Shown in pieces: positions 40,112 through 41,140 of a stretch of DNA of 64,000 nucleotides. Source of the DNA: Bacteroides sp. (GTDB lineage: Bacteria > Bacteroidota > Bacteroidia > Bacteroidales > Bacteroidaceae); assembly GCA_022648295.1 (NCBI GenBank), contig JALCME010000007.1:1-64000 (forward strand), given 5' to 3'. Both the position numbers and the translations under genes were made by a program. Below the pieces are notes generated by a model. The model did no database searches. It saw nothing but the letters and a program-made list of their open reading frames with translations, and was not told where the DNA came from. Each line of letters begins with the position of its first letter. Within the stretch, counting starts at the first letter, position 1.

Positions 40112-40595
40112 GATTCCTTGACTTTGCTTTTAGATATGCCGCATGGTTAACTATGCATTTCAATTTAAGTGTTAACGTAATATCTGACAAAGATAAAAAA
40201 CATTTTTCATATTAATTATAAACCCTGTTGTTTTACCCTGAATAGAACTGACTGTACCCACCATATATTCCGAGAAGGAATAACCTTTCTTGGTAAGAGC
40301 AAAAATCAATAAGCCAAGAGCTTTATTAAGTATTGAAAGGGCAAACTGACAACCTCTTCAGAGGCAATGAATGCAAACTTACAACCTATTTGGTGCTTCT
40401 TCAATTTAGTTGAAAAGGGCTAAAGACAAAAAGATCTTTTATCTAAAAGCCTGTTTTATAGTAGCCTTATTCGAATTTCACCTCTTGTTTCGTGAAGTAG
40501 TATTCGTTTTCAACTAAATTAAAGAAGAACCACCTAATAAGTTAACTTACACACTATTAACCGGTAGAACGTAGCATAGGTTCTGTTTTCTATAG

Positions 40596-40697
40596 GGAAA
40601 CAACTTGTTTTGCTACTCAAAACGAGTTGTTTTGAACGTCAAAACACTTTGTTTTAAGCATCAAAACAAAGCATTTTGAAGCATAAAACACAATCAG
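40596..40697. repeat. Tandem array of degenerate 22-nt dyad-symmetric units (cAAAACnnnnTTGTTTTgannnt)
   Basis: Unit starts at 40596, 40618, 40640, 40662, 40684, exactly 22 nt apart; GGAAACAACTTGTTTTGCTACT / CAAAACGAGTTGTTTTGAACGT / CAAAACACTTTGTTTTAAGCAT / CAAAACAAAGCATTTTGAAGCA / TAAAACACAA... Confidence 0.8.
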
Positions 40698-41140
40698 TCA
40701 AATGACCACTGATATTCTTCACTATAAGATTCAAAAGCGAGTTCCTCTACAACTCCTTGTTGTTGGAACAAGCGACGGATGTATTCCTGATCTTCAGGAG
40801 TAAGAAATAACTCTTTACGATAGAAACGATAGTATTTGTTTCTTCCAAAATGCCCCAGCATTCTGTTTTTCAATTCATAAACCTGTTTATAGGGAATACT
40901 ATCAAACAAATGTTTAATTCCCCACGCCACATGAACTTTTTTAGCCGAATGAAAGTAAGCACAAGCTCTGGAATCCGACGGAATGCAGGCCGGATTGATA
41001 ATGTTTATAGTAGTACATTCCTTGGGACAATGTTGTGCTGCAATATACCGGAGGCACTCCCCAGTCTTTTGACATTGACTATTAAAGCAATGAGCATAGT
41101 TATAGGGTACCAATTGATAATTAAATTCGTCTTTCATCAT
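40694..41140 (-). CDS. Cysteine-containing conserved protein (DUF6078-like)
   Basis: 148 aa; NYAHCFNSQCQKTGECLRYIAAQHCP motif; stop codon (40694-40696) lies inside the last unit of the 22-nt array. Confidence 0.6.
   Translation of the reverse strand: MMKDEFNYQLVPYNYAHCFNSQCQKTGECLRYIAAQHCPKECTTINIINPACIPSDSRACAYFHSAKKVHVAWGIKHLFDSIPYKQVYELKNRMLGHFGRNKYYRFYRKELFLTPEDQEYIRRLFQQQGVVEELAFESYSEEYQWSFD

Follow-up and report, generated by a model that had tools for sequence, protein, structure and literature searches.

A phased dyad array at the 3' end of a DUF6078 gene

The window, by which we mean the whole 64,000-nt stretch of Bacteroides sp. DNA that was analyzed, carries at positions 40596-40697 an array of 22-nt phased dyads with the plan AAAAC-N5-GTTTT-N7. 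It consists of four complete units followed by a half unit, which adjoins the stop codon of a minus-strand gene. From left to right, the five units read GGAAACAACTTGTTTTGCTACT, CAAAACGAGTTGTTTTGAACGT, CAAAACACTTTGTTTTAAGCAT, CAAAACAAAGCATTTTGAAGCA and TAAAACACAATCAG. All of the unit starts proposed in an earlier note on this DNA (40596, 40618, 40640, 40662 and 40684) were reproduced from the sequence, and the AAAAC-n5-GTTTT dyad that it ascribed to most units has both half-sites in four of the five, the fifth unit holding AAAAC only. The array also includes an extra, degenerate unit on its left side (CATAGGTTCTGTTTT, 40575-40589). TRF detected the repeat independently at 40598-40669 with a period of 22, and 40596-40697 is both the best lag-22 stretch of the window (44 of 66 positions identical) and its best phased-dyad stretch. 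A chance origin was rejected, as no such array arose in five runs of a Markov null matched in composition. Identity as a CRISPR was rejected as well, given 22-nt units that lack unique spacers and the absence of any Rfam match for the array.

The degenerate unit 0 and its CTATAG linker (CATAGGTTCTGTTTTCTATAG, 40575-40595) are similar in the other copies of the element in this genome. They are preceded by a leader on the plus strand (ACACTATTAACCGGTAGAACGTAG, 40551-40574), partly common to the copies on contigs C12, C32 and C6, and by an 18-mer on the minus strand (GTAAGTTAACTTATTAGG, 40533-40550). Directly left of the element is a 26-nt inverted repeat (92%), with arms at 40391-40416 and 40507-40532 and 90 nt between them, which has the appearance of the termini of a small IS or MITE.

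On the right, the last unit reaches the stop codon (40694-40696), as the earlier note had it, and the gene that the note called DUF6078-like is indeed a member of that family: the minus-strand ORF at 40694-41140 encodes 148 aa and matches PF19555 with 168.7 bits (E=1e-49), the gathering score being 27 bits. A second period-22 dyad array, with the different core TTAAAAGCCTTTTAA, was located at 14-72 by the lag-22 and dyad scans, at the edge of contig C7, where the earlier reader had also seen it.

Dispersed copies of the element

The 141-bp stretch at 40560-40700 is found at nine places in this genome, itself included, each time with several in-phase units; the longer of the other matches are 78-94% identical to it. 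The copies have the leader, the CTATAG linker and end pieces in common. Four sites in the genome contain the 18-mer, each of them beside an element copy. It brackets one of the nine copies (that on contig C4) as an inverted pair, and two further copies have it at a single side. At the RUG11619 arrays, neither inverted 18-mer flanks nor any flanks in common were present. The copy on contig C19 (L042, G000:C19:96696-96845 plus right flank) carries a stray DUF6078 3' end, 80% identical over 220 nt with the array included, at a place where there is no such gene.

A phage or plasmid origin of the element was rejected, as no DNA match was obtained in phage or plasmid collections. Since, in addition, 80 congeneric genomes returned a single weak match, the element sequence is local to the species. 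Judged from pattern matches, the array architecture is, unlike the element sequence, not species-local. Public genomes contain at least 119 stretches with the pattern AAAACN5GTTTTN7AAAACN5GTTTT. Prevotella accounts for many of these, Hoylesella and Odoribacter are also represented, and P. falsenii alone has 362 matches when one mismatch is allowed. Outside of Bacteroidota, most matches to the pattern resemble ordinary perfect-hairpin terminators. The flank TGANNATCANNNGTTA is present at some Prevotella arrays (five occurrences near arrays and three elsewhere in 880 kb), and was rejected as a general flank on the grounds that it applies to a minority of arrays only.

A period of 22 nt as the defining trait

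In an unbiased survey, unselected stretches were scanned at lags p of 12-49, and noncoding segments were counted when they reached 38 or more identities out of 66. About 20% of this genome was sampled in this way (864 kb, of which 77 kb is noncoding) and yielded 18 arrays at p=22, seven at the harmonic 44 and at most two at any other period; extrapolation gives roughly 90 arrays per genome. Eight congeners (700 kb) gave 21 arrays at p=22, six at 23, seven at 44, four at 46 and at most two elsewhere, while the same survey of E. coli (400 kb) gave none, as did five runs of a size-matched first-order Markov null. Dyad symmetry played no part in the selection of arrays, and 32 of 39 arrays were nevertheless significantly dyadic when compared with column permutations (mean 0.55 versus 0.42). 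The period-23 arrays, such as CGTAACTCCGTTAC (L128:1098-1230) and others in congeners, constitute a second, less numerous class.

Several core families coexist in one genome, a core being common to the units of an array and to its copies. Those of this genome are AAAAC..GTTTT, CCCACA..TGTGGG (about 12 copies), ACTGA..TCAGT, CCTACCTTTGC with its complement, AACAGAC..GTCTGTT, TTGCTCTACGA and TTAAAAG..CTTTTAA. The proposal in the earlier note of a family defined by its period rather than by its sequence is thereby supported, with period 22 standing alone and with multiple cores, and the similarity among the units of an array is consistent with the concerted evolution that it invoked. Contigs C5, C12 and C24 end in or near CCCACA-type arrays and C7 ends at the TTAAAAGCCTTTTAA array; as several contigs end in this manner, assemblies seem to break at arrays.

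The single period bears on the reading that the element is a MITE with an internal minisatellite, similar to BrickBuilt, in which the 22-nt spacing is an accident of slippage and the DUF6078 gene a chance neighbor. The leader and the 18-mer found inverted on either side of one copy are what such a MITE might show, and BrickBuilt itself provides a precedent (PMC4596501). Slippage would not be expected to settle on one period across so many genomes and unrelated cores, however, and on this point the reading is already contradicted; the want of common flanks at the RUG11619 arrays and a DUF6078 linkage far above chance (below) also stand against it, and we regard it as very improbable.

With gene context taken from simple ORF calls, which makes the figures approximate, 15 of 38 arrays have convergent genes on their two sides, where intergenic length predicts 8.0 (P=0.008). 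The association with gene 3' ends that the earlier note had wished to see examined is thus moderate overall, and very strong for DUF6078 genes, a family to which the note gave a name but no special place. Tandem bidirectional intrinsic terminators would account for a bias towards convergent genes, and the many terminator-like matches to the AAAAC pattern outside of Bacteroidota are in keeping with that idea. The array itself argues otherwise: its stems are AT-rich, it has no T tracts, and neither strand has a terminator-like site in or beside it, the one such site, at 40141, being within the range of shuffled sequence. Moreover, several RUG11619 arrays are situated past separate canonical terminators. 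The terminator role raised in the earlier note consequently found no support, there being no GC-containing stem with a T tract in or beside the array, and we consider this explanation extremely improbable.

Linkage of period-22 arrays to DUF6078 genes

By protein family alone, 60 DUF6078 genes of relatives were retrieved. A period-22 array is present within -30 to +150 of the stop codon in 36 of the 60, and eight more have one on the upstream side, at most 500 bp from the start, for a total of 44; at a laxer threshold of 33/66, the number of genes with an array rises to 48. The corresponding background is 25 of 1153 genes on the 3' side (2.2%) and 21 of 1153 on the 5' side, giving a Fisher probability of 1e-36 for the 3' side, which is to be read in light of the mutual relatedness of the DUF6078 genes, the 60 being not fully independent. 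Periods of 18-20 and 24-26 gave no arrays 3' of the same 60 genes. Almost all of the upstream arrays come from a single DUF6078 clade with strong support (100/99). The core is particular to each linked array, examples being GAAACAAAGTGTTTC, GACACAACTGTC, GGGACACTTGTCCC, TAAACTGACAGTTTA, GGTAATCCGATTACC and TGTAACGGCGTTACA, and DUF6078 aside, no neighboring gene recurs convincingly at arrays.

An independent set was provided by a plasmid collection, in which all four annotated DUF6078 genes (two from Parabacteroides distasonis and one each from Bacteroides finegoldii and Treponema saccharophilum) have an array no more than 40 nt from the stop codon, with lag-22 identities of 51, 44, 44 and 37 of 66. 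The Treponema gene and its array (L375:1189-1626) are carried on plasmid pTS1, in a host outside of Bacteroidota, and were likely moved jointly by horizontal transfer. DUF6078 fragments without an adjacent array were also encountered, in P. falsenii and others (L344, L349 and L335).

The distance from the stop codon to the array is 6-80 nt in most DUF6078 genes, a spacing that would also suit an element acting in RNA. According to that reading, the array is transcribed as part of the DUF6078 mRNA, in its 3' UTR or its 5' leader, and forms tandem 15-bp hairpins bound by DUF6078 or by an RNase, with 22 bp corresponding to two turns of A-form RNA. The RNA fold of the array is unusually stable (z -3.6), the C20 copy has two perfect hairpins, and the variable N5 segments of adjacent units are complementary slightly beyond expectation (P about 0.01-0.02). 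The DNA fold is at least equally unusual (z -5.0), however, and dispersed copies are found between convergent genes without consistency of strand. In addition, a palindromic array looks identical on both strands, which makes a role in RNA unnecessary. We judge an RNA-level element to be distinctly unlikely.

Correspondence between DUF6078 proteins and array cores

Across the 44 gene-array pairs, protein identity correlates with array similarity (Mantel r=0.24), a value that none of 5000 permutations reached, although co-inheritance of linked DNA could be responsible for part of the correlation. GRCACAAC-GTGYC is common to a close group of genes from four genomes, that of B. finegoldii included (L297, L320, L321 and L376), and half-sites resembling GGGAAC-GTTCCC are common to L301, L313 and L315. 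In-phase RAAAC-N5-GTTTY units accompany 5 of the 12 genes whose proteins are at least 37% identical to that of the window versus 2 of 51 others (P=0.002). The strict RAAAC label shows no clustering on the DUF6078 tree (7 changes, 6.8 in shuffles). The match of protein to core by strict motif is therefore suggestive only, and linked DNA is inherited together with its gene.

Dispersed GAAAC arrays offer a better test of cognate cores than linked ones do. Genomes with a GAAAC-linked DUF6078 gene contain 67, 67, 19, 17, 16, 10, 5, 1 and 0 of them, versus 6, 4, 3, 1 and ten zeros in other genomes with DUF6078 (P=5e-4). Within the genome of the window, the core next to the DUF6078 gene is also the core of the eight dispersed copies, while a second DUF6078 gene, on contig C10, has a GGGAAC array with no dispersed copy in the genome. 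The main dispersed core of P. falsenii, P. disiens and G109 (AAAAC) differs from the cores linked to their DUF6078 genes. G108, G110, G114 and G116, some of which are drafts, are rich in arrays and have no detectable DUF6078, and most array families of the present genome, including the dispersed family F2 (about 12 copies), have no DUF6078 partner. A search beside these other families for a distant DUF6078 homologue returned nothing above noise. These observations depart from a simple scheme of one protein for one array. Lost partners and other protein families would be the obvious explanations for partnerless arrays; decayed DUF6078 partners would explain such orphans.

Properties of the DUF6078 protein

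Only six residues are invariant among 28 DUF6078 sequences, namely four Cys, one Gly and one Gln, and a catalytic set of invariant Tyr, His or acidic residues is absent. Four invariant cysteines and no catalytic-looking residues are suggestive of a site for zinc and not of an enzyme. Weak Pfam matches to an Xre-like HTH, at residues 80-124, occur in three members (E 0.0017-0.05). Two AlphaFold models (four sequences each) agree on a C-terminal domain, modeled with confidence, in which two strands enclose three helices, and on a Cys-rich half with no resolved fold, a large part of each model having a pLDDT <50. Foldseek returned nothing significant for either model; HTH domains of the lambda, XRE and controller types recur among the non-significant matches of both. 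The HTH assignment is weak. No significant match to DUF6078 was obtained in the PDB, by sequence or by fold, or in BFVD, no convincing match in PADLOC or NCBIfam, and none in four single-protein scans of IMG/VR. A search of the accessible literature found no mention of DUF6078.

These properties bear on a selfish system of the REP/RAYT kind, in which DUF6078 or some unidentified partner copies the arrays, the linked array being the master and the dispersed ones its non-autonomous offspring. The layout resembles that of rayt genes with their flanking REPs (PMC2817692), with linked palindromes, dispersed intergenic copies and a matching of protein and repeat similarity: as in that system, the partner is flanked by its own type of repeat, on the evidence of the 44 of 60 genes with an array and of the Mantel correlation. 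Leader and end pieces shared among copies, as well as the stray DUF6078 3' end on C19, would also fit a copying process. Against this, Y1_Tnp (PF01797) has no matches in the present genome, P. falsenii, G108, G109, G110 or G113, and DUF6078 shows no catalytic signature. The P. intermedia repeat PINSR is found mostly at sites common to two strains and is thus not very active (PMC4755523). No GTAG or CGTC tags were apparent by eye in the listed array units. Membership of the RAYT/REP class was rejected, as no Y1/HUH transposase was detected in the six genomes searched, and we hold a REP/RAYT-like selfish system to be unlikely.

A proposed mechanism

We favor, at slightly better than even confidence, the interpretation that the DUF6078 protein encoded next to the array has in it a cognate site linked to its own gene, and that the copies are dispersed sites comparable to REPs. 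DUF6078 would be a zinc/HTH-like DNA-binding protein, a dimer of which might occupy each dyad of about 15 bp, with cooperative binding along four to eight dyads spaced 22 bp, or about two helical turns, apart. Strict helical phasing is a point against this arrangement, as B-DNA would favor 21 bp over 22 bp. Each DUF6078 lineage would have a half-site of its own, here AAAAC/GTTTT, and would keep one array beside its gene, on the 3' side or, in one clade, on the 5' side. Copies would be scattered intergenically, more often between convergent genes, in the manner of REP/BIME elements. Acting at gene ends, dispersed arrays may thereby assemble several dimers into nucleoprotein blocks that keep adjacent transcription units apart or insulated from one another. 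Where no cognate gene is resident, an array would be what is left after the loss of a DUF6078 gene. DNA binding by DUF6078, its cooperativity, the insulating role and the mode by which copies spread are what we infer here from sequence comparison.

A broader claim, to which we give a little less than even credence, is that Bacteroidales, and also a Treponema plasmid, possess an undescribed repeat-protein system in which the members of a fast-diversifying family of DNA-binding proteins each re-specify a palindromic site of their own and spread period-22 arrays of it through the chromosome. Every species would thereby possess several families of dispersed nucleoprotein sites, sequence-specific and with the 22-bp spacing as their sole common trait. 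If true, orphan repeats such as PINSR would have a common explanation, DUF6078, a protein family of unknown function, would acquire a testable role, and roughly 90 unannotated sites per genome would be revealed in dominant gut bacteria. A changing core with a constant period would further provide a natural series for the co-diversification of a DNA-binding protein and its site.

Comparison with known systems

Plasmid iterons and ParB/parS clusters are tandem sites about two helical turns apart, and the cognate protein that binds them is encoded by an adjacent gene. The present arrays differ from such iteron and operator arrays in that they follow the gene, have copies all over the chromosome and are not alike in sequence from one paralogue to another, and no replication or partition gene was seen nearby. 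The REP/BIME elements of gammaproteobacteria and their RAYT (TnpA-REP) partners (PMC2817692) are similar in being intergenic palindromes, on the order of 100 per genome, of lineage-specific sequence, with a small gene that has its own repeat type at its flank. The partner here is DUF6078, with its invariant cysteines, in place of a Y1/HUH transposase, and the arrays have a fixed 22-nt tandem period and are usually on the 3' side only.

Two repeats of related bacteria also invite comparison. BrickBuilt of P. gingivalis is an intergenic MITE of 19 copies with a 23-nt minisatellite, a leader and a tail (PMC4596501). It is akin to the present element in its intergenic position, its short tandem period and its leader and tail, and differs in its period of 23, its TIRs akin to those of the IS5 family and its restriction to P. 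gingivalis and P. gulae; dyads and a DUF6078 link go unreported in the text available (PMC4596501). BrickBuilt is a possible cousin of the period-22 class. PINSR is a 188-bp intergenic repeat of P. intermedia and P. nigrescens, with 177-184 copies in P. intermedia and of unknown function, which has no terminal inverted repeats, is also present in P. falsenii and is said to be confined to one clade (PMC4755523). The dominant dispersed repeat of P. falsenii is an element of ~215 bp built on period-22 AAAAC dyads, and PINSR, as compared by host, size and dispersal, probably belongs to the same class. Period-22 dyads and a DUF6078 link are absent from the available description of PINSR (PMC4755523). 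The array of the window was rejected as a PINSR copy.

The statement in the earlier note that there is no named feature class for such arrays is nearly right: no account of a general class with a 22-nt period, or of its link to DUF6078, was found in the literature, the accessible parts of the PINSR and BrickBuilt papers included, whereas PINSR is a probable named member and BrickBuilt a possible cousin. The arrays dispersed between genes in gut bacteria of the Bacteroides/Prevotella group, together with DUF6078, point to an undescribed system of protein plus DNA repeat.
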